Below, piece by piece: positions 745 to 9,023 of a stretch of 9,182 nucleotides of DNA (position 1 is the first letter of the stretch; every line of letters begins with the position of its first letter). The stretch lies in assembly GCA_900752785.1 (NCBI GenBank), contig CAADWP010000140.1, positions 1 through 9,182 of the forward strand. The letters are read 5' to 3'. Source of the DNA: an uncultured Ruminococcus sp. Its GTDB lineage: Bacteria > Bacillota > Clostridia > Oscillospirales > Ruminococcaceae. A program made the translations under genes and the position numbers. The notes under the pieces were generated by a model, which was not told the DNA's origin, did no database searches, and saw only the letters and a program-made list of their open reading frames with translations.

Positions 745-817
745 GATGCTAAAAATTAAAGATAGAGTTATGTTAATTGATAAAACTATTTTTAATACAT
801 AAAATTATCAAAAACAC

Positions 818-847
818 TTGACTTTAGATAGAAAAATATTATATAAT
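818..847 (+). promoter_or_regulatory. Promoter P2 (TTGACT-18-TATAAT)
   Basis: TTGACT at 818-823 and TATAAT at 842-847 are 18 bp apart, preceded by ATTATCAAAAACAC. The downstream TATTGTAAA is identical to P1. It drives the structured RNA at about 854-1085 and the two tRNAs. Confidence 0.88.
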
Positions 848-853
848 TATATT

Positions 854-1085
854 GTAAATTGAAAAGGAAAAATTCAATTTATAAAAAGATAAGATTTAGT
901 AGAGAAGTAGCTATTCTCACAAGCCCAGACAATAACTTATGGCGTTGAAGTGGAGAGAAAGATAGAACCAATCTTACTCAAGACCAACCTCCAAAGTGAG
1001 AAAGGGAGAGAAAACACCAATCTTATCTTTGAATAAATGTCGCTCGACTTAAAACCTTTATGGGTTTTGAGTCGAGGGCATCCTA
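854..1085 (+). ncRNA. Structured RNA 1, leader of the tRNA transcript
   Basis: This region has no ORF with a ribosome-binding site but clear secondary structure. A 12-bp perfect helix pairs 885-896 with 1019-1030 and encloses about 120 nt. Inside, GAGAA/TTCTC forms a hairpin near 902-918. A 14-bp hairpin follows at 1043-1076. A second copy of AATCTTA (971-977) could replace the 3' half of the closing helix, so two exclusive folds are possible. Motifs CACAAGCC, CTTATGGCGTT and AGAAAGAT recur in RNA 6 and near 6630-6652. The transcript should read through into tRNA-Thr and tRNA-Ala and be released by tRNA processing. Boundaries are estimated; I do not recognise a known family. Confidence 0.65.
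1043..1076 (+). other. 14-bp stem-loop between RNA 1 and tRNA-Thr
   Basis: CTCGACT/AGTCGAG is continued by a T-G pair and AAAACC/GGTTTT, with a loop of about six bases. No T-run follows, so it is not a canonical terminator. It is more likely a protective or processing hairpin ahead of the tRNAs. Confidence 0.75.
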
Positions 1086-1102
1086 AATACTATTATTATA
1101 AC

Positions 1103-1186
1103 GCTGGAGTACCAAAGTAGACAAATGGAATTGACTTGTAATCAATCGGGAAACCTTCGTGGGTGCAAATCCTACCTCCAGCACCA
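1103..1186 (+). tRNA. tRNA-Thr (anticodon UGU), CCA encoded, long variable arm
   Basis: Acceptor GCTGGAG/CTCCAGC (1103-1109 with 1176-1182), discriminator A1183 and encoded CCA (1184-1186). The anticodon stem is ATTGA/TCAAT with loop CTTGTAA, giving anticodon TGT (1137-1139), which reads ACA. The T stem is GTGGG/CCTAC with loop TGCAAAT. G1-C72, C2-G71, G35 and U36 agree with known ThrRS identity elements. Oddities: the D arm (TACCAAAGTAGAC...) is of the Tyr/Ser class II type with a C10-G25 pair, the variable region is 12 nt with a GG-GAAA-CC mini-hairpin (1148-1155), the T loop has G at position 55, and the D loop has AG where GG is expected. It is expressed with RNA 1 from P2. Confidence 0.9.
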
Positions 1187-1215
1187 GTATTTAGATATAA
1201 AATTCAAATTTTTAT

Positions 1216-1294
1216 GGGGCATGGGACTGCTTGATGTGGTCACCTGACTTGCAATCAGGAAATCAGCGGGGTTTGAATCCCCGATGCTCCACCA
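1216..1294 (+). tRNA. tRNA-Ala (anticodon UGC), CCA encoded
   Basis: Acceptor GGGGCAT/ATGCTCC (1216-1222 with 1284-1290) carries the G3-U70 wobble that is the AlaRS identity element. Discriminator A1291 is followed by encoded CCA (1292-1294). The anticodon stem is CCTGA/TCAGG with loop CTTGCAA, anticodon TGC (1250-1252), reading GCA. The T stem is CGGGG/CCCCG with loop TTTGAAT. The D arm is short (GAC/GTC) with an atypical loop. Position 8 is G instead of the near-universal U, and C56 is replaced by T while the D loop offers GA instead of GG, which could be a compensatory A19-U56 pair. It lies 29 nt after tRNA-Thr in the same transcript. Confidence 0.88.
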
Positions 1295-1325
1295 AGTTTT
1301 TAATACTCAAAATTATCAAAAATAC

Positions 1326-1355
1326 TTGATTTAAAATAATAAAATCATTTATAAT
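1326..1355 (+). promoter_or_regulatory. Promoter P3 (TTGATT-18-TATAAT)
   Basis: TTGATT at 1326-1331 and TATAAT at 1350-1355 are 18 bp apart, behind ATTATCAAAAATAC. The TTATTTATAAAG after the -10 box is shared with P6. It drives the roughly 600-nt structured RNA 2. Confidence 0.88.
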
Positions 1356-1361
1356 TTATTT

Positions 1362-1958
1362 ATAAAGTTAAGAAAAAAATTATTCCTGACTGGCGTACGG
1401 CGGTCGTGCGGCTGGGCTGTAAACAGCTAACTCACCAGACTGACCGAAAGGTTGGAGGTCCTTTAGGACATCACTTAGTAGGGTTCGTGATATGGAGCGT
1501 GTTACTTCATAGACATAAGCGATAGTATCTGGAGTTGTGTGGGGGCATACACTGCATTAATGGAGCAGGAGGGTGCCAGCGGGAATTAGTAAGATTTTAA
1601 TTTGGGGATTTGTCCTTAAGCACGCTGTATAAGTGTACTTGCTGCAACGGTAGTTGGTGATCTCTACTGCTCCAGCTTTTTGGCAACCAGTCCGATTCCG
1701 AGCTGAAAGAAATTGTGGGGGACTGAACAAAGGACGTGGATTTATGCTCGATTCAAAGATTTAAAAATGATATGTGTGCTATTTGAAATATAGATAGCGA
1801 TGGGAGGACCGAGCCTCTCCGTTAAGCCGTAGCCAATCGGTAAACGTGTGGTGAAACATAGGTTATTAAACCACCTTATCATTTTTTTCTTATGGTTATT
1901 AAGGTCGCACGGTTGATCCTGCATCAAGACCTTTAACAGACATTTTGTAATTTTCGTC
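1362..1958 (+). ncRNA. Large structured RNA 2 (about 600 nt)
   Basis: Between P3 and P4 there is no convincing ORF on either strand, but the sequence is full of helices. Long-range GACTGG (1388-1393) can pair with CCAGTC (1687-1692). TGGAGCAG (1561-1568) pairs perfectly with CTGCTCCA (1667-1674). AAAAATGATA (1763-1772) pairs with TATCATTTTT (1877-1886). A two-part hairpin at 1899-1936 stacks TTAAGGTC/GACCTTtAA on TTGAT/ATCAA. Local hairpins include ACC-GAAA-GGT (GNRA loop), GTCC-TTTA-GGAC and ATCAC/GTGAT between about 1443 and 1493. GC content looks higher than in the flanking promoter and coding DNA. Size, tRNA neighbourhood and complexity resemble ROOL/GOLLD-type phage RNAs, but family membership is not shown. 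Ends are inferred from promoters; no clear terminator is visible. Confidence 0.7.
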
Positions 1959-1979
1959 ATAAAAAAATAAAAAAAAGAC

Positions 1980-2009
1980 TTGACCGAAGATGGCAAAATC
2001 GTTTATAAT
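1980..2009 (+). promoter_or_regulatory. Promoter P4 (TTGACC-18-TATAAT)
   Basis: TTGACC at 1980-1985 and TATAAT at 2004-2009 are 18 bp apart, following an A-tract (AAAAAAGAC). It drives RNA 3. Confidence 0.87.
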
Positions 2010-2015
2010 TTAATT

Positions 2016-2431
2016 ACAAAAGTTGAGAAAAATATAATTGAACTGAGAGGGGTTGAGACCAGTGCAACTCTGGTCATTCATTAAGATTATATTTTTCAAT
2101 AGAGTGATTACCCGAAGCTGATGCGAGAACGTCTGAGCCCAGTAGGATATCTATTAGATTCTGAAGTGCAATAGTGAGTTAGGTGCGAAGTAAAGTGGAA
2201 TGAATGAGAGCGGTCATTTCTCACTCGTGCTTTTGTAAAAATAATGACACATAGCCCGGCAGAAGAGGCGTGGCATAGCTTGCCGACCACGTGTTTGTGT
2301 TATTTGTAGCTGAATATAAACCCTAAGGCACAAGATGAGAGTGGTCTTGGCATCAGCTTTTCTTATAATCAAGAATAAGTATAAAGAAATCTTGATGGTG
2401 TTTTATTCATTTTCTTCCAGAAAGAAAATGT
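2016..2431 (+). ncRNA. Structured RNA 3 (about 350-415 nt)
   Basis: No ORF with a ribosome-binding site. The 5' part is a stem-loop: 2027-2038 pairs with 2086-2097 (12 bp) and contains a GACCAG/CTGGTC hairpin. The main domain is closed by a perfect 10-bp helix, AAGCTGATGC (2115-2124) with GCATCAGCTT (2350-2359), enclosing about 225 nt with, among others, a CGGCA/TGCCG hairpin near 2255-2284. Two hairpins end the unit: ATCAAGA/TCTTGAT (2368-2396) and CATTTTCTT/AAGAAAATG (2408-2430). The latter may act in termination although the T-run after it is weak. The fold is not one I recognise. I checked by eye for tmRNA and RNase P signatures and found none. Confidence 0.7.
2408..2430 (+). terminator. 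Possible terminator hairpin after RNA 3
   Basis: A 9-bp perfect stem CATTTTCTT/AAGAAAATG with a 5-nt loop lies between RNA 3 and P5. The downstream stretch TCTACTTAATTTTTG is only moderately T-rich, so termination is plausible but not certain. Confidence 0.4.
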
Positions 2432-2466
2432 CTACTTAATTTTTGAAAAAAATATTCAAAAAAGAC

Positions 2467-2496
2467 TTGCAAAGTCCTACGAATATATTATATAAT
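2467..2496 (+). promoter_or_regulatory. Promoter P5 (TTGCAA-18-TATAAT)
   Basis: TTGCAA at 2467-2472 and TATAAT at 2491-2496 are 18 bp apart, with the same TATAATTATATTGTAAA core as P1, P2 and P8. It drives the small gene at 2553. Confidence 0.86.
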
Positions 2497-2552
2497 TATA
2501 TTGTAAAAAAGAAAAAAAAGATTTTTTATTTATAGAAAGGAAAGTGATAGTT

Positions 2553-2783
2553 ATGAATAAAAAGTATAGTTATGAAATTGAATTCTTATCAAGAGATGTA
2601 AGTCCAACAGGTACGAAACATTTTGGTGCAACTGGTGGAGCATTGTTAAAAGAAATGAAAGCAAGTCTTGACAAATTTCTTGAAGAAAATGGATTGCAAA
2701 AAAAGGGTGCAACAAGTGGTCAAATCCTAAATGCAAAAGGTCAAGTAATTGGAAGATTTTGTTTCAATTGCCAAACTTTTTAA
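2553..2783 (+). CDS. Small orphan protein with C-terminal FCFNC
   Basis: A 76-residue protein. I choose ATG 2553 rather than the in-frame GTG at 2544 because AGAAAGGAAAG (2534-2544) gives normal spacing only to the ATG. It has a charged N-terminal strand (YSYEIEFLSRDVSPTG), a Gly/Ala stretch (KHFGATGGALLKEM), an amphipathic helix (ASLDKFLEENGLQKK), then GATSGQILNAKGQVIGRF, which looks like a beta hairpin, and a C-terminal Cys70-Phe-Asn-Cys73. A single CxxC could bind metal only with other ligands or as a dimer. No family is recognised. It is the only protein gene inside the 4.7-kb RNA array and has its own promoter, so it could act with the RNAs, but nothing in the sequence proves this. Confidence 0.8.
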   Translation: MNKKYSYEIEFLSRDVSPTGTKHFGATGGALLKEMKASLDKFLEENGLQKKGATSGQILNAKGQVIGRFCFNCQTF

Positions 2784-2803
2784 GAAAAAATTATCAAAAA
2801 TAC

Positions 2804-2833
2804 TTGATTTCTTATAGCAAAAAAGTTTATAAT
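2804..2833 (+). promoter_or_regulatory. Promoter P6 (TTGATT-18-TATAAT)
   Basis: TTGATT at 2804-2809 and TATAAT at 2828-2833 are 18 bp apart, with ATTATCAAAAATAC upstream and TTATTTATAAAG downstream as in P3. It drives the roughly 1-kb RNA 4. Confidence 0.88.
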
Positions 2834-2839
2834 TTATTT

Positions 2840-3856
2840 ATAAAGAAATGAGAAATAAATTAAGAAGTGTTATAGTGTAAATCGGAACCGTATCTATAAT
2901 TCCTTTCTCAACAATTTACCAAGTTTGAAATGTGAACTGGAGATTGAAATAACTAAACTTGACTTAACCCCTTGGGGTAGGAACAAGAGTTCCAGAGTAA
3001 GCCTGAACCTGTTATGAAGTAATCCCTACTATAAATCTAAAACAAACTTGAAGATGGAGTCAGAAACCTGCAAGCTGACAGAGGGTAGGCGACCCAACGC
3101 TGACATTATAACTGCGAATTGACGCAAGATTTTGTTGATAAGCAATAACAAACCAAGGAAAATGTCAATAACAACTTTCCTTTATATGAGAGAATGAAAT
3201 CTCAGGGGGTATCATTCTTTCATATAAGAGAATGTTGAAACCATTGGCACAATGTGTTAGAGAGAAGAACCTAAAGGTGTATGGAAGAGCCTCAAAGCCA
3301 ATAGGGAAGAGCCTCGGCGGTCCGAGTTGAAGGCTTGTAGGACGGAAGGCATCTAAGTTCTCTAACATATTGTGGCGATGTAGCAGCAGGGTAAGTCAAG
3401 AAACTGAATGGCACGCCTGTCTGCGATCTGAGATAGCACTGCTTCCAATCGGGAGTATCTAACAACACGTGTGGCTCAGCCGTTTCAGTGCCTCTTAAAT
3501 AGGACTCATCGGGACGATGAGGGGATTGGCACCATCATAGCTCGTCTAATAACCTTTCAGGGGGTTGGGGTTTGAGCGAAAACCTTGCAGATGATGGTGG
3601 GTGAATCAAAATTGCTTGGTTCATTGGCAAAAACTTGACCAGTAATAAGTTTTAAACTTCGGTTTATCACAATACTGCACAAGTAGGGACTTTGAGAGTA
3701 AGGTAATAATTAGTCCGTGGTGGAATATAGACACGCTAAAGAAAATAATGGTCAGCTCATATAGAGGGTAATCGAACAGGTCATCTAGCAATAATTTGTT
3801 TTGAACCTCGAGTTGGCGTCCCTTGGTGAAAGTCCTTGGGCGGGCTACTAAATATT
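2840..3856 (+). ncRNA. Giant structured RNA 4 (about 1 kb)
   Basis: Roughly 1000 nt without a supported ORF. Visible helices: long-range CTTGACTTA plus CCC (2958-2966, 2968-2970) with GGG and TAAGTCAAG (3389-3400), 12 bp with one bulge; GGAAC-AAGA-GTTCC near 2980; GTCAG/CTGAC and GGGT/ACCC between 3059 and 3096; GACATT/AATGTC and TTTGTT/AACAAA between 3102 and 3167; a 16-bp stem 3182-3197 with 3212-3227; a 16-bp stem 3248-3263 with 3359-3374; CTCATC/GATGAG at 3505-3521; and CACCATCAT (3530-3538) with ATGATGGTG (3591-3599). The helices nest into several domains. Length and layout are in the GOLLD range, but no family can be assigned by eye. The 3' end lies before P7 and is approximate. Confidence 0.75.
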
Positions 3857-3878
3857 TAATTAAAATTATAAAAAAGAC

Positions 3879-3908
3879 TTGACCATTCGTGGTAAAATGA
3901 TTTATAAT
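3879..3908 (+). promoter_or_regulatory. Promoter P7 (TTGACC-18-TATAAT)
   Basis: TTGACC at 3879-3884 and TATAAT at 3903-3908 are 18 bp apart, behind AAAAAGAC. The spacer resembles that of P4. It drives RNA 5. Confidence 0.87.
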
Positions 3909-3914
3909 TTTAAT

Positions 3915-4262
3915 ATAAAATGAAAGAGAAATAAGAATGATGTGGTTTTACCAGTCAGTTTAAAGCCATCTTTCAACTGACATAAGATGTGGCTATTTAG
4001 AAAGCAACAGAGGACACGGGACTAAATAGTGCGTAAGCAACACTTATTATGAGCAGAAAGTTAGGATTGGGAAGGTTCTATACGTGCTTGAGATGATCCT
4101 TTGGGTGAAGCGATACGCAGTATAAAGTTGGCAATTAGGGAGTATGAACCAAGATAGTAAGGGTTAGGCTATCAAAAATTGAAAATTATTGGTATTCCAG
4201 TTTGGTAAGAGGAACTAAGTATATACCATTCTCCTTAGAGTTGAGAAAAATATATCAGCCAT
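3915..4262 (+). ncRNA. Structured RNA 5 with a 5' H-type pseudoknot (about 350 nt)
   Basis: No ORF. The 5' part can form a compact pseudoknot: GTCAGTT (3954-3960) with AACTGAC (3975-3981), crossed by GCCATC (3965-3970) with GATGTGGC (3986-3993, one bulge). CTATTTAG (3994-4001) pairs perfectly with CTAAATAG (4021-4028) immediately after. Farther on, TATAC/GTATA (about 4080-4125) and a GGTAT/ATACC pairing containing TTCC/GGAA (about 4191-4228) are possible. The 3' end lies before P8. No known family is recognised. Confidence 0.65.
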
Positions 4263-4292
4263 AAATTTTCTATAAAAAAATTAAAAAAATAC

Positions 4293-4322
4293 TTGACTTT
4301 TATGAGATAATTATTATATAAT
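4293..4322 (+). promoter_or_regulatory. Promoter P8 (TTGACT-18-TATAAT)
   Basis: TTGACT at 4293-4298 and TATAAT at 4317-4322 are 18 bp apart, with the common TATAATTATATTGTAAA core. It drives RNA 6. Confidence 0.88.
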
Positions 4323-4328
4323 TATATT

Positions 4329-4500
4329 GTAAATAAAAAAAGAATAAAAAGGAAATGTATAAGACTTAATTAGTAAGGCTGGTATGTAGTGATTATTCAC
4401 AAGCCAAAGCCATAAGAGAAAGATCCTTCTAATTAAGCACTGTGGAAAACGAGCCATAACAGTTTGCGAAATGAGTTTACTCTTTCTCCTGTTTAAAAAG
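4329..4500 (+). ncRNA. Structured RNA 6 (about 170 nt)
   Basis: A 13-bp helix with one bulged T closes the 5' domain: 4365-4378 with 4425-4437. Inside are GTGA/TCAC and GGCT/AGCC pairings and the stretch CACAAGCC...ATAAGAGAAAGAT that resembles RNA 1 (CACAAGCC...AGAGAAAGAT). The 3' part has weaker structure. A short ORF reading at 4502-4687 has no ribosome-binding site, crosses P9 and is not counted. RNAs 1 and 6 may be members of one family. Confidence 0.6.
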
Positions 4501-4576
4501 AATGTGGCATAGATTTTTGATAAGTTTGATAAATATGCCTTACAAAAACTTATCTCAAAAATATTTCACAAAAGAG

Positions 4577-4606
4577 TTGACTTTTAGTCCTCAAGTAGTG
4601 TATAAT
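4577..4606 (+). promoter_or_regulatory. Promoter P9 (TTGACT-18-TATAAT)
   Basis: TTGACT at 4577-4582 and TATAAT at 4601-4606 are 18 bp apart, followed by ATATTTATAAAG. This is the last standard promoter before 6920, so it is the only visible source for the 1.2-1.4 kb transcript that follows. Confidence 0.87.
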
Positions 4607-4612
4607 ATATTT

Positions 4613-5853
4613 ATAAAGAATGAAAAAAATAGTTATTCTGCAAACCAACCGAGTTTGGTGACGAGGCAACCATCATTCACTGTTTAAGACAGACATTTGG
4701 TAAAAGCGAATTGCAGACACATTCCTTTCATAATTAGTAGTCTATCTTTTATAGACTGCTTAGGACTGAAAAAAGGATTTATCACTTTCCTTCACTATAG
4801 ATTTTTCAGTCCTAAGGAGTTTATAAAAGGCAATCTTCTACGCTGGTGGAGTCCTAAAGAGGGGAAGCCCCGAAGGAAGTAAAAAAATAGTTAAAGTGTC
4901 CGTTGTTGCAACTCCGATACTTATGTATCTTACACAATAGCTACCCATTTTGGAAAAGGCACTATAAAGAACCGTAGCAAAACGTTATGTGTTGTCCGAA
5001 TTGTATATTACCTAAGGATGAAGCAACTCGTAGTAGGACAATAGCTCTTAGGTGTGGCGGGAAAATATCAGCTCTAAACTGTGGATTCCCTCCTAATACT
5101 ATTGTTAAGAACACAAGCCGTTTGACTGATCGTAGACTGTTCAGTTGCTTATATTACTAAAAATATGAGCCACTCCCACTGGGGCTGGGGCGGATGTTTA
5201 GCACTTTCCATTCGTTAGGGTTTAAAGTGCGTTGTTCTTTGAAAAGGGAATATTTAGAACCAGATGAAAAACAGTGTGTCGACCACACTGGCTGGAATAT
5301 AACTCAAGGGATAGAATTCCGATCAGCAGAGATGCGAACAGGTGAAATCCTTAGCTAGTTAGGTAACTAACCCGCTCGGAGCTACTCAGTGGCAAGGGAG
5401 TTATAGGTGCAGCTATATCAGTGTCAAAAACAATGCTAAACTGTTCGGGGCAAATCGGGAGACCAACATGGGCGTACCCACATATCCCACTACTGGAGAC
5501 AGTGGTAAGGGCAATGAGTGAAGATCGCTAAAGCCTTTGCGTAATTGAAGCATCGCAAGATGTGTATAAGAACAGACGGCAGTCCAAGTAGCCTAAATTT
5601 ACGCTTCTATTAACAATTATGATTGCGTTTAGTGCGAAAAAAGCAATTTACTGTACACAAAAGGTGTAAATGTCTATCGCAGGTGAAAGGTGCAACGAAA
5701 GATGTTGTCAGGGCAAGTCGGAAGCCTATGGCTTTGGCTAAACGTGGAGGTGCAGGCATGCACCAAGGGCGGTTAGTCCCCTGTGTGTGAATATTGGCTG
5801 GGATATAGTGTGTATAAGGAGGACTTACTAAATATTCTTTTTTCAAAGAACAA
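4613..5853 (+). ncRNA. Giant structured RNA 7 (about 1.25 kb, two halves)
   Basis: No credible ORF runs through this stretch and no second promoter of the standard design is seen. 5' half: AGTCTAT/ATAGACT (4739-4757), then a perfect 15-bp stem 4759-4773 with 4802-4816. Its loop (ACTTTCCTTC) could pair with GAAGGAAGT near 4873-4881. Next come GGGG-AAG-CCCC near 4861, and a pseudoknot with TTGTCC (4992-4997)/GGACAA (5036-5041) crossing CCTAAG (5011-5016)/CTTAGG (5047-5052). A GCACTTT/AAAGTGC hairpin follows at 5200-5230. 3' half: a 618-nt domain closed by a 24-bp helix, 5234-5257 with 5828-5851, with only two G-U pairs. It contains CAGTGTG/CACACTG (5272-5290), GTTAG/CTAAC and CCACT/AGTGG hairpins. 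The 3' domain alone is ROOL-sized. It may be one RNA or a precursor of two. Confidence 0.75.
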
Positions 5854-5974
5854 GAAGTTCTTATCTAACTCAGAAACTCAAGTCTTGAACGAAGCTAGCT
5901 TTCTGAGATATAGATCAACTGCTGGCGGCAGCCAAAGCCTAAAGCGAACCAGCTAGATAAAGAGTAAATAACTT
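5854..5974 (+). ncRNA. Structured 3' segment of the RNA 7 transcript
   Basis: After the 24-bp helix, ATCTA plus CTCAGAAA (5863-5867, 5869-5876) pair with TTTCTGAG plus TAGAT (5900-5907, 5911-5915). TTATCTA (5861-5867) can instead pair with TAGATAA (5954-5960), so two exclusive folds are possible. A CTGC-TGGCG-GCAG hairpin follows at about 5919-5931. CTTGAACGA occurs twice (5884 and 5973 regions). It may be the tail of RNA 7 or a separate processed small RNA. Confidence 0.5.
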
Positions 5975-6015
5975 GAACGAGGAGGAAAGCAAGTGCTGCC
6001 ATCTCGTTTTTTTGT
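5975..6015 (+). terminator. Intrinsic terminator of the RNA 7 transcript
   Basis: ACGAG (5977-5981) pairs with CTCGT (6003-6007). Inner GG/CC and AGCA/TGCT pairs extend the stem, and an uninterrupted T-run follows (6007-6013). This is the clearest terminator of the RNA array and marks its end. Confidence 0.8.
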
Positions 6016-6040
6016 TTTTTTAAAAAAATTAAAAACCGAA

Positions 6041-6121
6041 TTGACCTATTTGACCAAATTAACTAGCATACGCTGTTTTAAATATTCTTTTAATATAATT
6101 TATCATTAAAATATTTTGACC
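6041..6121 (+). promoter_or_regulatory. Leader region with three TTGACC boxes upstream of the winged-helix gene
   Basis: TTGACC occurs at 6041, 6050 and 6116; the latter two are followed by similar bases (AAATTAACTAG and TAATTTGCTAG). TATAAT stands at 6094-6099 but without a -35 box at 17-18 bp. This gene therefore lacks the standard promoter of the window, and the repeats may be operator sites or a different promoter class. Function is inferred only from position. Confidence 0.4.
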
Positions 6122-6185
6122 TAATTTGCTAGAAAAGATACTAGAACGGGATTGTGGTACCGAACGGACTAAGGAGGAAACGCTT

Positions 6186-6470
6186 ATGGCAACGCACTAT
6201 CTATTACTTAATAAAGAACGATTTGGAAAAGGACTTACTATATTAGAACAAGCAATTTTAGCACAGGCGGAAGAATATGAAAAAAATAAGTGTCCTTGCT
6301 TTATAACCAATGAACAGTTTGCCTTTATGTTTGGCGTTAGTCTTTATCAGGTTAAGTTGGCTCTAGATAGATTAGAAAAAGTATATGGGCTTATCAAAAG
6401 AGAAACCTCAAACGTGCGTGCTGATGGAGGCAAGGGTAAAATGAGAATAATCAAACTAACTCATCACTAA
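6186..6470 (+). CDS. Small winged-helix protein, replication-initiator N-domain-like
   Basis: A 94-residue protein. ATG 6186 is preferred because AAGGAGG (6171-6177) sits 8 bp upstream; longer in-frame TTG starts have no such site. Residues 14-35 form a helix (LTILEQAILAQAEEY). Then CFITNEQFAFMFGVSLYQVKLALDRLEKVYGLIKRE (about 38-73) reads as helix-turn-helix plus wing, with 'GLIKR' before the wing, and the protein ends in a strand (KMRIIKL). This pattern is typical of the DNA-binding N-terminal domain of phage replisome organisers and plasmid initiators, which usually have a further C-terminal part absent here. It could be a stand-alone repressor or a truncated initiator. Iteron-like repeats follow directly, supporting a DNA-binding role there. 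The function is inferred, not shown. Confidence 0.75.
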   Translation: MATHYLLLNKERFGKGLTILEQAILAQAEEYEKNKCPCFITNEQFAFMFGVSLYQVKLALDRLEKVYGLIKRETSNVRADGGKGKMRIIKLTHH

Positions 6471-6472
6471 CT

Positions 6473-6574
6473 CATCAAGGTTAATATACGACCTTGGTAG
6501 CAGTGAATAAAATGAACTACCAAGGTTGAAAGAATGTCATTACCAAGGTTGAAATTTGAACTTACCAAGGTTGA
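6473..6574. repeat. Iteron-like TACCAAGGTTGA repeats
   Basis: Exact TACCAAGGTTGA occurs at 6518-6529, 6541-6552 and 6563-6574, with start-to-start spacings of 23 and 22 bp, about two helical turns. A diverged copy (CATCAAGGTTAA) lies at 6473-6484 and an inverted ACCTTGGTA at 6491-6499. The spacing is not a multiple of three throughout, so it is not a coding repeat. Position just after a winged-helix gene suggests binding sites, possibly an origin or autoregulatory array. Confidence 0.75.
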
Positions 6575-6599: not shown

Positions 6600-6735
6600 A
6601 ATGTGTGATTTCATAGAAGAGACTGCAGCTAAACTATGGCGTTAAAGAAAGATCAATATTATAGGTCGAGAGATGAGCTGCTGAAGCTGAATAAGGGAAA
6701 GAGGAGTTGGTAAGTAAACTTACCTCTTTGTAAAG
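6600..6735 (+). ncRNA. Possible structured RNA 8
   Basis: GCAGCT (6625-6630) pairs with AGCTGC (6676-6681) around CTATGGCGTTAAAGAAAGAT, which resembles RNA 1 (CTTATGGCGTT...AGAAAGAT). GATC/GGTC can pair inside. A hairpin with GTAAGT/ACTTAC and AAGAG/CTCTT follows near 6700-6728. There is no standard promoter immediately upstream, so it may be the 3' untranslated region of the winged-helix gene. Confidence 0.4.
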
Positions 6736-7365: not shown

Positions 7366-7602
7366 ATGGCTAAAGAAAGATTTAATGTAATGGGAAAAGA
7401 ACTTACTGCAAATGAAAAAGCAGTATATGAATTCGTAAGGGACAACGGAGTAGTTGACTACAAGATGGTTGCTGAAAAACTAAACATCAGTCCAAAGAGT
7501 GCATCAAGCACACTAGCAAGACTAGAAGCAACTCATAGTCTATTAAAGAAAAATGCTCCAAAAGTTGCTACAACTTATGAAGTAGAAGCTGAAGCTGAAT
7601 AG
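7366..7602 (+). CDS. Winged-helix DNA-binding protein A (78 aa)
   Basis: ATG 7366 is chosen because GGGTGAG (7354-7360) matches the GGTGA part of the anti-Shine-Dalgarno and gives MAKERFNVMG, which aligns with MAKAKELFNVRG of the paralogue at 8778. An upstream in-frame TTG (7330) adds 12 residues not shared with it. Residues about 11-68 read as a winged helix: ELTANEKAVYEFVRDNGVVDYKMVAEKLNISPKSASSTLARLEA, then a short wing (LLKKNAPKVATTYEV) and an acidic tail. The fold resembles MarR/GntR-type small regulators; specificity is unknown. It is transcribed from three tandem promoters and ends with a structured 3' region and an intrinsic terminator. A role as regulator of the shared promoters or as a host-directed early protein is inference only. 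Confidence 0.85.
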   Translation: MAKERFNVMGKELTANEKAVYEFVRDNGVVDYKMVAEKLNISPKSASSTLARLEATHSLLKKNAPKVATTYEVEAEAE

Positions 7603-7603
7603 T

Positions 7604-7738
7604 AATAGGTTTTTATTCTTCACAATATAAAAGGGGTTGCTTGTGGTTGCCCCAACCAAAAACATAAGTGGTGTAGGTTTGCTCGTTAGGGGCTGCGAGG
7701 GTAAATAAAGAACAGCAGAACTGGTTGCATAATACGAG
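7604..7738 (+). other. Structured 3' untranslated region of winged-helix gene A
   Basis: About 135 nt without an ORF lies between the stop and the terminator. GGTTG/CAACC and CTCG/CGAG pairings are visible around 7636-7655 and 7682-7699. It could be a stable 3'-derived small RNA. No recognised motif. Confidence 0.35.
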
Positions 7739-7739
7739 T

Positions 7740-7768
7740 GGCAAGGCAAGAGCCTTGTCTTTTTTTTA
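7740..7768 (+). terminator. Intrinsic terminator of winged-helix gene A
   Basis: GGCAAGGC (7740-7747) pairs with GCCTTGTC (7752-7759), eight pairs including one G-U, with loop AAGA, followed by a T-run from 7760 to 7767. Confidence 0.92.
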
Positions 7769-7875: not shown

Positions 7876-7899
7876 TATTATAATGGGGGAGTATTATTA

Positions 7900-8140
7900 A
7901 AAAAAAAATAGATCCCAGCTCCCTTAGCCTGATCCAGCTCCAAATCCCAGCTCCCACCTAGGGCGCAGCTCCAAATTGCTACCAGGGGATAGGTGGCAAT
8001 GAATTATTTCCTGGGAAATATTTGCTAGCAAAAAATGGGTAGACTCCCCCCTCCCCTTCTTCTGGCAGTTAGATCTCATTACACGGCTCGGGTCTAACTA
8101 TTGCCCACATATTTAATTTTTCTTTTCCTCCTTTCTTTAT
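7900..8140 (-). ncRNA. Possible minus-strand RNA from P14
   Basis: Transcription leftward from P14 would start near 8140, after AAAGGAGG on the minus strand. The only start codon downstream (ATG at 8110 on the minus strand) gives 13 codons and is 16 nt away, so no real gene is supported. A strong hairpin lies at 8064-8105 (GGCA and GTTAGA paired with TCTAAC and TGCC). GGAGCTG repeats follow, and a U-run would be made at 7909-7900. It could be a repeat-bearing small RNA or the stump of a lost gene. Confidence 0.4.
7975..8000. repeat. Hairpin repeat copy 1 (TTGCTACC-N8-GGTGGCAA)
   Basis: ATTGCTACC (7975-7983) pairs with GGTGGCAAT (7992-8000) with one G-U pair and an 8-nt loop. The same arms recur at 8297-8318; half-copies are TAGGTGGCAA at 8276-8285 and TTGCTACC at 7161-7168. 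Confidence 0.7.
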
Positions 8141-8146
8141 AATATA

Positions 8147-8176
8147 ATTATACATCTTTCAGCTCCCAATAGTCAA
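8147..8176 (-). promoter_or_regulatory. Promoter P14, the only minus-strand one (TTGACT-18-TATAAT)
   Basis: On the minus strand TTGACT (8176-8171) and TATAAT (8152-8147) are 18 bp apart, preceded by CAAAAAATAC and followed by TATATTATAAAGAAAGGAGG. The design is the same as the plus-strand promoters, with a CAGCTCC unit inside the spacer. Confidence 0.85.
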
Positions 8177-8296
8177 GTATTTTTTGAAAAATTTTAGCAG
8201 CTCCCATTGCCCCCACCTTCCAGCTCCCATAGCGCAGCTCCGGTAGGAAAAGCGCAGCTCCCACCCAGCTCCAAATAGGTGGCAATGCCAGCTCCC

Positions 8297-8318
8297 TGCT
8301 ACCAAATTATAGGTGGCA
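8297..8318. repeat. Hairpin repeat copy 2
   Basis: TGCTACC (8297-8303) pairs with GGTGGCA (8312-8318) around an 8-nt loop of different sequence from copy 1. Conserved arms with a changed loop suggest the stem is what is kept. Confidence 0.65.
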
Positions 8319-8392
8319 ACACCTGATCTGATCCACCTTGACCGGATCTCTTGCCCTTGGGATAATTTTTGCAATAAATTTTTAAAAAAGAC

Positions 8393-8439: not shown

Positions 8440-8586
8440 GTGGTAAAACTAATTAAAAAATTGCACGATCTAATGCTACAAATAATTACTTGTAATGATG
8501 CTGAACTTGACAAGATAGGAATTGAACTTGCAGAAATAGAAAAACAACTAATTAATTGGCAAGAAAAAAAATCTCAAAAAAAATAA
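8440..8586 (+). CDS. Small coiled-coil-like protein (48 aa), GTG start
   Basis: An open frame of 48 codons from GTG 8440 to TAA 8584-8586: starts (M)VKLIKKLHDLMLQII, then CNDAELDKIGIELAEIEKQL and a Lys/Gln tail. The composition and regular Leu/Ile spacing look like one or two amphipathic helices rather than random AT-rich sequence. GTG 8440 has only a weak AAGAG site at short distance and would be almost leaderless from P15. ATG 8473 has no better site. It fills the interval between P15 and P16 exactly, as the other small genes fill theirs. No family is recognised; a decayed gene start is the alternative. Confidence 0.5.
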   Translation: MVKLIKKLHDLMLQIITCNDAELDKIGIELAEIEKQLINWQEKKSQKK

Positions 8587-8777: not shown

Positions 8778-9023
8778 ATGGCTAAAGCAAAAGAATTATT
8801 TAATGTTAGAGGAGTAAACTTAACTGCTCACGAAAAAAATGTTTACGACAAAGTAAAGGAGTTAGGCACTGTTGACTATAACCAAGTAGCAACTGCTTGT
8901 AATGTATCTACTAAGTCTGCTATTGCAACATTAGCAAGATTAGAAAAAACTCACGGTTTATTAAGAAAAAATGAACCAGTAAAAGTAACTACTTATGAAG
9001 TTGCTGATGTGGAGGGCGAATAG
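8778..9023 (+). CDS. Winged-helix DNA-binding protein B (81 aa)
   Basis: Paralogue of the protein at 7366, about half identical along its length. They share xFNVxG, LTAxEKxVY, VDYxxVA, NxSxKSAxxTLARLExTHxLLxKN and TTYEV. ATG 8778 has GGTGAT (8769-8774) just upstream, the same type of ribosome-binding site as gene A; an in-frame ATG at 8766 adds four residues (MVIK) and lacks a site. Residues about 14-70 form the winged helix, with the probable recognition helix at STKSAIATLARLEKTHG, then LLRKN and a short wing, and an acidic tail (VADVEGE). Three tandem promoters lie upstream, as for gene A, and the terminator overlaps the stop codon. DNA binding is inferred from the fold; the target is unknown. 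Confidence 0.88.
   Translation: MAKAKELFNVRGVNLTAHEKNVYDKVKELGTVDYNQVATACNVSTKSAIATLARLEKTHGLLRKNEPVKVTTYEVADVEGE

Follow-up and report, generated by a model that had tools for sequence, protein, structure and literature searches.

Gene-less promoter-headed units and a boxA-bearing ROOL RNA in a probable phage contig

What is made from positions 1326 to 6015 of this stretch, where promoters follow one another and a single gene is found? The window, meaning the whole stretch of 9,182 nucleotides (nt) analysed here, is contig CAADWP010000140.1 of assembly GCA_900752785.1 (uncultured Ruminococcus sp.), and the first-pass annotation, made from its sequence, had proposed an array of large structured RNAs. 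The explanation favoured here, at a probability of about two in three, is that the array consists of six gene-less units, each headed by a promoter, that the ROOL RNA in the last of them, which bears a boxA sequence, is made and trimmed in the manner of ribosomal RNA (rRNA), and that the other units are likely phage structured RNAs built from exchangeable domains.

Promoters were scanned as TTG[ACT]N15-20TATAAT, giving 16 sites on the plus strand of the window, where 300 dinucleotide shuffles gave 0.66 on average (maximum 7). The spacer was 18 nt in all eight promoters from 818 to 4577. Seven of these (TTGNNN-18-TATAAT) lie in the array range 1326-6012, six preceding non-coding units and one, at 2467, the gene of a 76-amino-acid (76-aa) protein. 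The scan thus confirmed that promoters of the same layout stand ahead of six non-coding units and one 76-residue gene, and the lengths first given for the units (about 600, 400, 1000, 350, 170 and 1250-1400 nt) were close to those of B to G below. The identical layout also precedes the transfer RNA (tRNA) unit, genes and small units outside the array range, so it is the general promoter of the element and not one particular to the RNAs. In ten phage contigs the surroundings of ROOL, in stretches of 5-10 kb, carry 4-15 such promoters on its own strand and 0-4 on the opposite one. Promoters (by the scan) and units were as follows.

818..847, plus strand, promoter (TTGACT-18-TATAAT) of the unit A/tRNA transcript
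858..1075, plus strand, unit A, small structured RNA before the tRNAs, with an end helix at 877-896/1019-1038 and a hairpin at 1044-1075; folding z-score (z) −4.0
1326..1355, plus strand, promoter of unit B
1362..1945, plus strand, unit B, about 580 nt and non-coding, with an end helix predicted at 1369-1380/1881-1892, without relative; z −1.4
1980..2009, plus strand, promoter of unit C
2024..2432, plus strand, unit C, about 410 nt and non-coding, with a 5′ hairpin (2027-2097) and an end helix predicted at 2102-2112/2397-2408, without relative; z −2.5
2467..2496, plus strand, promoter of the 76-aa gene
2804..2833, plus strand, promoter of unit D
2840..3860, plus strand, unit D, about 1020 nt and non-coding, with a 5′ hairpin (2849-2910), without relative; z −3.3
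3879..3908, plus strand, promoter of unit E
3916..4270, plus strand, unit E, non-coding, about 355 nt; z −0.5
4293..4322, plus strand, promoter of unit F
4332..4555, plus strand, unit F, non-coding, about 220 nt; z −1.3
4577..4606, plus strand, promoter of unit G
4615..6012, plus strand, unit G, 1.4 kb, comprising module M4, leader, ROOL and trailer (folding, helices, open reading frame test)

Do these units code for anything? No plus-strand open reading frame (ORF) of at least 20 aa behind a ribosome site was found in any of the six, as had been claimed, and the longest ORF per unit was near chance, its length being reached by 41 to 199 of 200 shuffles. Folding was scored for each segment against 30-60 shuffles. 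In addition to the values listed, G1 (the 5′ part of G) gave −3.1, ROOL −4.4 and G3 −1.4; C, D, G1 and ROOL folded better than every one of their shuffles, and six coding controls scored −1.1 to +1.8 on the plus strand. Reverse strands scored low too (ROOL, −3.2), because strong helices are nearly symmetric. End helices were predicted in A, B, C, D and G; that of D (2915-2923/3822-3830) had a mean pair probability of 0.56 and enclosed 17-bp helices at 3181-3228 and 3248-3374. Long helices, announced for each unit, were borne out by the predicted folds of B, C, D and G and not for E and F. Structure above chance in all units was not upheld, since B, E and F failed the shuffle test.

Comparison of each unit with Rfam, proposed at the outset, gave ROOL above its cut-off in G, and no other array unit reached a gathering score. 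Searches at an expectation value (E) of up to 10 returned weak matches only, the best being that of Atu_L1 to D, at 16.3 bits where the cut-off is 60 (E 0.41 to 1.5). Because no family cut-off was reached by the other units, undescribed classes are likely among them; of the several ornate RNAs expected, one, ROOL, is bona fide, and pieces of E and G recur elsewhere. A search for relatives of 1300-6100 gave five records matching the promoter stretch only in 'phages' and none in 'plasmids', and nhmmer comparison of the window units with the fetched loci returned, besides ROOL, just modules M3 and M5 and a weak match to F. Three leads from unit D were rejected: 19 pattern matches in loci of 55-70% GC were judged to be chance; D as a divergent ROOL (common ACAAGTAG and GGTGAAAG) gave no ROOL match on D alone, the motif lying in a different predicted helix; and D as a relative of an RNA in related contigs G012 and G038 (common GGAGTCA...ACCTGCAA) was dropped, without nhmmer support. 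Units A (858-1038) and F (4360-4500) have ACAAGCC...AGAGAAAGAT in common, and A shares TATGGCGTTRAAG with a unit at 6600-6720; the three are perhaps copies of one small RNA class. Unit A had no Rfam match above a cut-off.

What, then, is unit G? The cage structure of ROOL has been solved, but no function or route of biogenesis is known for it. In the window the whole ROOL model was matched at 150.5 bits (gathering cut-off 99.1), and a whole-window Rfam search at E≤1 returned ROOL and two tRNAs. No covariance match to GOLLD or to OLE was obtained at E≤1 over the window or at E≤10 over 780-4570 and 4560-6020. The ROOL core, GUAUAA...CAAGUAGC...GUGAAAG with a variable linker, is present in the cmscan alignment. 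Within unit G, ROOL has about 615 nt ahead of it and 160 nt behind, and its ends are joined by helix P1, of 26 nt.

5236..5847, plus strand, ROOL RNA, RF03087, model positions 1-574 of 574 (Rfam covariance model)
5232..5257, plus strand, 5′ arm of ROOL helix P1, pairing with 5828-5853 (predicted fold)
5828..5853, plus strand, 3′ arm of ROOL helix P1 (predicted fold)
5233..5242, plus strand, TGTTCTTTGA, the Bacilli rRNA boxA, at the foot of the ROOL end helix (sequence match)

According to the available text of each source, the env-120 ROOL is an octameric RNA-only cage (PMC12286853), and a ROOL-type RNA of L. salivarius reaches the abundance of 16S rRNA (PMC5643018).

Is the boxA at this position particular to the window? 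ROOL loci were collected without regard to boxA: a core pattern gave 87 stretches, of which 11 passed a second motif, and nhmmer added two, making 13 records. Twelve scored at E≤0.001 and 11 above the cut-off, and the thirteenth, from G012, gave 152.4 bits in a separate search. Exact TGTTCTTTGA opens P1 in 8/13 (L006, L019, L020, L035, L039, L052, L055 and L058), or in 7/11 after merging of the near-identical pairs L002/L003 and L039/L055; the background was 2 copies per 746,302 bp of other phage loci, both strands. Among the boxA records the 3′ arm differs, with G-U and other pairs, yet P1 still forms; the constancy of the 5′ arm is partly by construction, because boxA was counted by exact match. 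A scan for boxA itself gave 60 stretches, 23 of them chosen by eye, and 19 of these 23 score as ROOL. The boxA-bearing pattern was also matched by 13 stretches of bacterial assemblies (11 uncultured Bacilli, one Candidatus Caccenecus of class Bacilli and one uncultured bacterium); these genome_contigs stretches are pattern matches and may be phage contamination of metagenome-assembled genomes.

Since a 16S gene was found in 0/13 of those assemblies, 40 genomes from the class to which G040 belongs, G040 included, served to check the rRNA boxA. Seventeen had a 16S gene; 28 of 30 fetched loci were used, and one without the 16S motif was dropped, leaving 16 genomes. The 9-mer GTTCTTTGA lay no more than about 120 bases from the 16S gene in 8/16, and the exact 10-mer TGTTCTTTGA in 3/16; GTTCTTTGAAAAC was found in 8/16, 38-63 nt ahead of the gene or 55-119 nt past it. 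The ROOL foot carries the (T)GTTCTTTGA boxA sequence found beside Bacilli 16S genes. In E. coli rRNA, according to the available text of PMC10250234, boxA immediately precedes the leader strand of the leader-trailer helix; it is necessary and sufficient for the antitermination complex, and formation of 30S requires the helix. ROOL P1 is therefore read, as a prediction, as a helix of the leader-trailer kind that contains boxA, and from the position of boxA at its foot rRNA-like transcription and trimming are predicted for ROOL.

The same ten bases could instead be a helix arm kept by descent and unlinked to boxA. The foot does pair in a long helix in 23 listed cases (interrupted in several), and ROOL types without the exact boxA have other sequences there, one (L108/L109) being a partial look-alike. 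Pairing alone, however, would allow both arms to drift, whereas the 5′ arm equals the Bacilli rRNA boxA and is identical in eight divergent, unselected records while the 3′ arm varies. Descent without boxA function is on this evidence rather unlikely.

Are the remaining units RNAs of the same kind? Three modules were recognized in the window that recur in related contigs.

4183..4261, plus strand, M5, the 3′ part of unit E (nhmmer, alignment)
4637..4717, plus strand, M4: outer helix, hairpin 1, GTGACGAGGC, hairpin 2, AGCGAA (shared elements, covariance model)
7682..7745, plus strand, M3: possible H-type pseudoknot and hairpin, 3′ of a winged-helix gene (nhmmer, alignment)

M5 matched a stand-alone unit behind its own promoter in G038 (L217:3062-3137; nhmmer E 1.5e-7, 5.8e-6 in a larger set). 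M3 matched G018 at 88% over 59 nt (nhmmer E 9.1e-9) and was also found in G037; the window has its CTCG-loop-CGAG pseudoknot, AAATAAAGAA and hairpin with GCATAAT loop. Across the three sequences three hairpin pairs changed on both sides and one non-standard pair occurred, in the window. Candidate pseudoknots had been claimed for every unit; they were counted for M3 only, and there the pairs of the possible pseudoknot never vary. M4 was first noticed by eye via a shared ten-base word, and GTGACGAGGC, AGCGAA and three helices are common to the window, G012, G014 and G038, all elements being present in the window. A covariance model was used because MAFFT misaligned M4; it was built from two close members (G038 and G014) and then widened by G012. 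The widened model, built without the window, gave a modest 17.2 bits (E 0.016) and the top rank in the window. In the model alignment 50/50 cells pair and 3/14 pairs change on both sides; slid versions gave 0. Five of 49 loci scanned passed the M4 helix filter, of which three look real (G012, G014 and G038) and two, GC-rich, were taken as chance. Unit F has AAGGCTGGTA...AGCCATAAGNGAAANATCCTT in common with M4 hairpin 1 of G038 and G014, a weak match (E 0.004; 0.17 in a larger set). Modules M1 and M2 form the ROOL leader in G012 and separate units in G018. No Rfam cut-off was reached by M3, M4 or M5. As modules sit in different transcripts in other phages, the array RNAs look modular by sequence comparison.

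M4 precedes a small gene in G012, G014 and G038 and opens the ROOL unit in the window. The small genes that adjoin M3 or M4 in G012, G038 and G037 had no family above the Pfam cut-off, that of G038 matching a LexA-type helix-turn-helix below it (HTH; 20.5 bits, cut-off 23.7). This placement of M4, and the unremarkable folding of B, E and F, would suit units that are long untranslated leaders or decayed genes and not functional RNAs themselves. Five of the six window units, however, run into the next promoter and not into a gene, ROOL is known as a free RNA, each of C, D and G1 beats all its shuffles, and M3 and M5 are conserved; leaders or decayed genes are accordingly an improbable account of the array.

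Where does such an array belong? The boxA scan led to large phage contigs that bear tRNA islands. Rfam search of seven relative stretches found ROOL in 5/7, OLE in 3/7 and transfer-messenger RNA (tmRNA) in 2/7. OLE, in L201 (G018), L208 (G022) and L122 (G012), scored 109-119 bits (cut-off 50) and shares an island with ROOL and tRNAs. The fetched stretches of G017, G018, G022 and G012 carry 24, 23, 24 and 18 tRNAs, with tmRNA in G018 and G022, so that these two hold ROOL, OLE, tmRNA and 23-24 tRNAs in a single island; tRNA-poor relatives are G031 (1), G034 (1) and G014 (0). Kinship is supported by the 48-aa protein at 8440-8583, which is 58% identical over 40 residues to a G012 protein; MT835469 has one protein in common at 37% and no RNA. 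The window DNA is likely from a virus of gut bacteria, its phage identity being suggested by these relatives.

The related contigs gave further observations. More undescribed RNAs, 330-730 nt long and common to these phages entirely or partly, were noted at L201 reverse 17310-17640, L122:14605-15340 and L217:1015-1545. At L217:3856-4755 of G038 a 299-aa frame is open solely if TGA is read as tryptophan (9 such steps), and a tRNA with anticodon TCA (L263) lies on the same contig; stop-codon reassignment in these phages is possible. At L122:14078-14130 of G012, T-arm, acceptor and D-arm follow in an order that resembles a circularly permuted tRNA piece, as judged by eye.

How might the array work? 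An island of stable RNAs that serve during infection alongside the phage tRNAs would agree with the data. Each unit would be a discrete transcript. NusB-S10 would bind the ROOL boxA and RNA polymerase would thereby pass through untranslated, highly structured RNA; P1 would play the part of a leader-trailer helix and be cut by RNase III or a similar enzyme, and the trimmed ROOL would assemble into cages, as its relative does in vitro. The other units probably serve the same programme of the infected cell, at a guess by translation take-over or care of the phage tRNA pool. More widely, and tentatively, at a little under even odds, gut-Bacilli phages may run a dedicated stable-RNA factory that combines an almost full set of tRNAs with tmRNA, OLE, ROOL and a dozen modular RNAs not yet described, the nanocage being made through the host rRNA pathway by means of boxA on a leader-trailer-like helix.

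Several results weigh against the reading of the array as rRNA-like ROOL plus structured phage RNAs. Folding beyond that of shuffles was not seen in B, E or F. No relatives of B, C or D were obtained in any search made. The first M4 model (G038 and G014) ranked the window second (11.5 bits, E 0.43), and in a larger four-source search the widened model gave E 0.088. The exact boxA word is missing from five of 13 ROOL records (L001, L002, L003, L033 and L059), so boxA is not needed for ROOL as such, and no boxA of such form was found beside 16S in the other 8/16 Bacilli genomes. No virion proteins were among the eight window ORFs searched. Finally, no terminator-like site passed the scan on the plus strand of 780-6150, so read-through is possible. 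This last point also suits one long precursor, started at upstream promoters and cut up like an rRNA-tRNA operon with the inner promoters merely boosting it, as do the predicted end helices of A, B, C, D and G and a boxA within unit G. Against it, each unit has its own near-consensus promoter; a common precursor is a possibility to be taken seriously, if a doubtful one.

The remaining features of the window were annotated as follows.

1103..1186, plus strand, tRNA-Thr (tgt) (Rfam and tRNA search)
1216..1294, plus strand, tRNA-Ala (tgc) (Rfam and tRNA search)
2553..2783, plus strand, 76-aa protein, without family (database searches)

The 76-aa protein has five metagenome relatives, 96-100% identical over 50-100% of its length. 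Proteins 7366-7602 and 8778-9023 are paralogues (56% identical), the first with a DNA-binding domain above the Pfam cut-off; this winged-helix protein (7366-7599) has 33 metagenome homologues and none in viral_contigs, genome_contigs, phages or plasmids. The L. salivarius ROOL likewise adjoins an HTH gene in the available text of PMC5643018. At 7890-8360, where CAGCTCC repeats abound, the GC skew reverses; a minus-strand promoter stands at 8176, and the minus strand there is a possible antisense unit. A possible replication origin lies at 6186-6574, where three direct TACCAAGGTTGA repeats and one inverted near-copy come after a protein with weak similarity to initiators of phage replication (phrog_270, E 1e-4). 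These iteron-like repeats and the Rep-like protein downstream of the array would agree with its sequences acting as DNA (origin, packaging or decoy sites) and not as RNA. ROOL, however, is matched by an RNA covariance model, both sides of the M4 helices show changes and the promoters point into the units, which makes action as DNA very improbable.

ROOL itself was already known; boxA on its end helix is new here. No paper combining ROOL and boxA was found by literature search, nor any on the array or modules M3-M5, most subscription papers lying outside the search; boxA and antitermination are not mentioned in the available main text of Kretsch et al. (PMC12286853) or the available text of the L. 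salivarius paper (PMC5643018). The position of boxA offers a directly testable biogenesis route, namely whether a cage RNA is made and trimmed like rRNA. Reuse of RNA modules across transcripts, if true, would mean that phages recombine structured RNA domains as they do genes, and the islands supply several candidate RNA classes for cryo-electron microscopy and covariation studies.

Among known systems, the L. salivarius megaplasmid long non-coding RNA is alike in being a ROOL-type RNA upstream of an HTH gene and differs in that no array is found in the available text of PMC5643018. GOLLD, in the available text of PMC12286853, is likewise a large phage RNA near tRNAs, and OLE (RF01071) is a large ornate RNA that lies beside ROOL and tRNAs in phage contigs G012, G018 and G022. 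Described ROOL (RF03087) is matched over the full model above the cut-off, with tRNAs 4 kb upstream in the window, whereas the window copy is embedded in a 1.4-kb unit behind M4 and a leader, with boxA at its foot. With the rRNA leader-trailer helix it shares the boxA sequence and a long helix joining both ends; ROOL is not rRNA, and its boxA lies inside the helix and not upstream of it.

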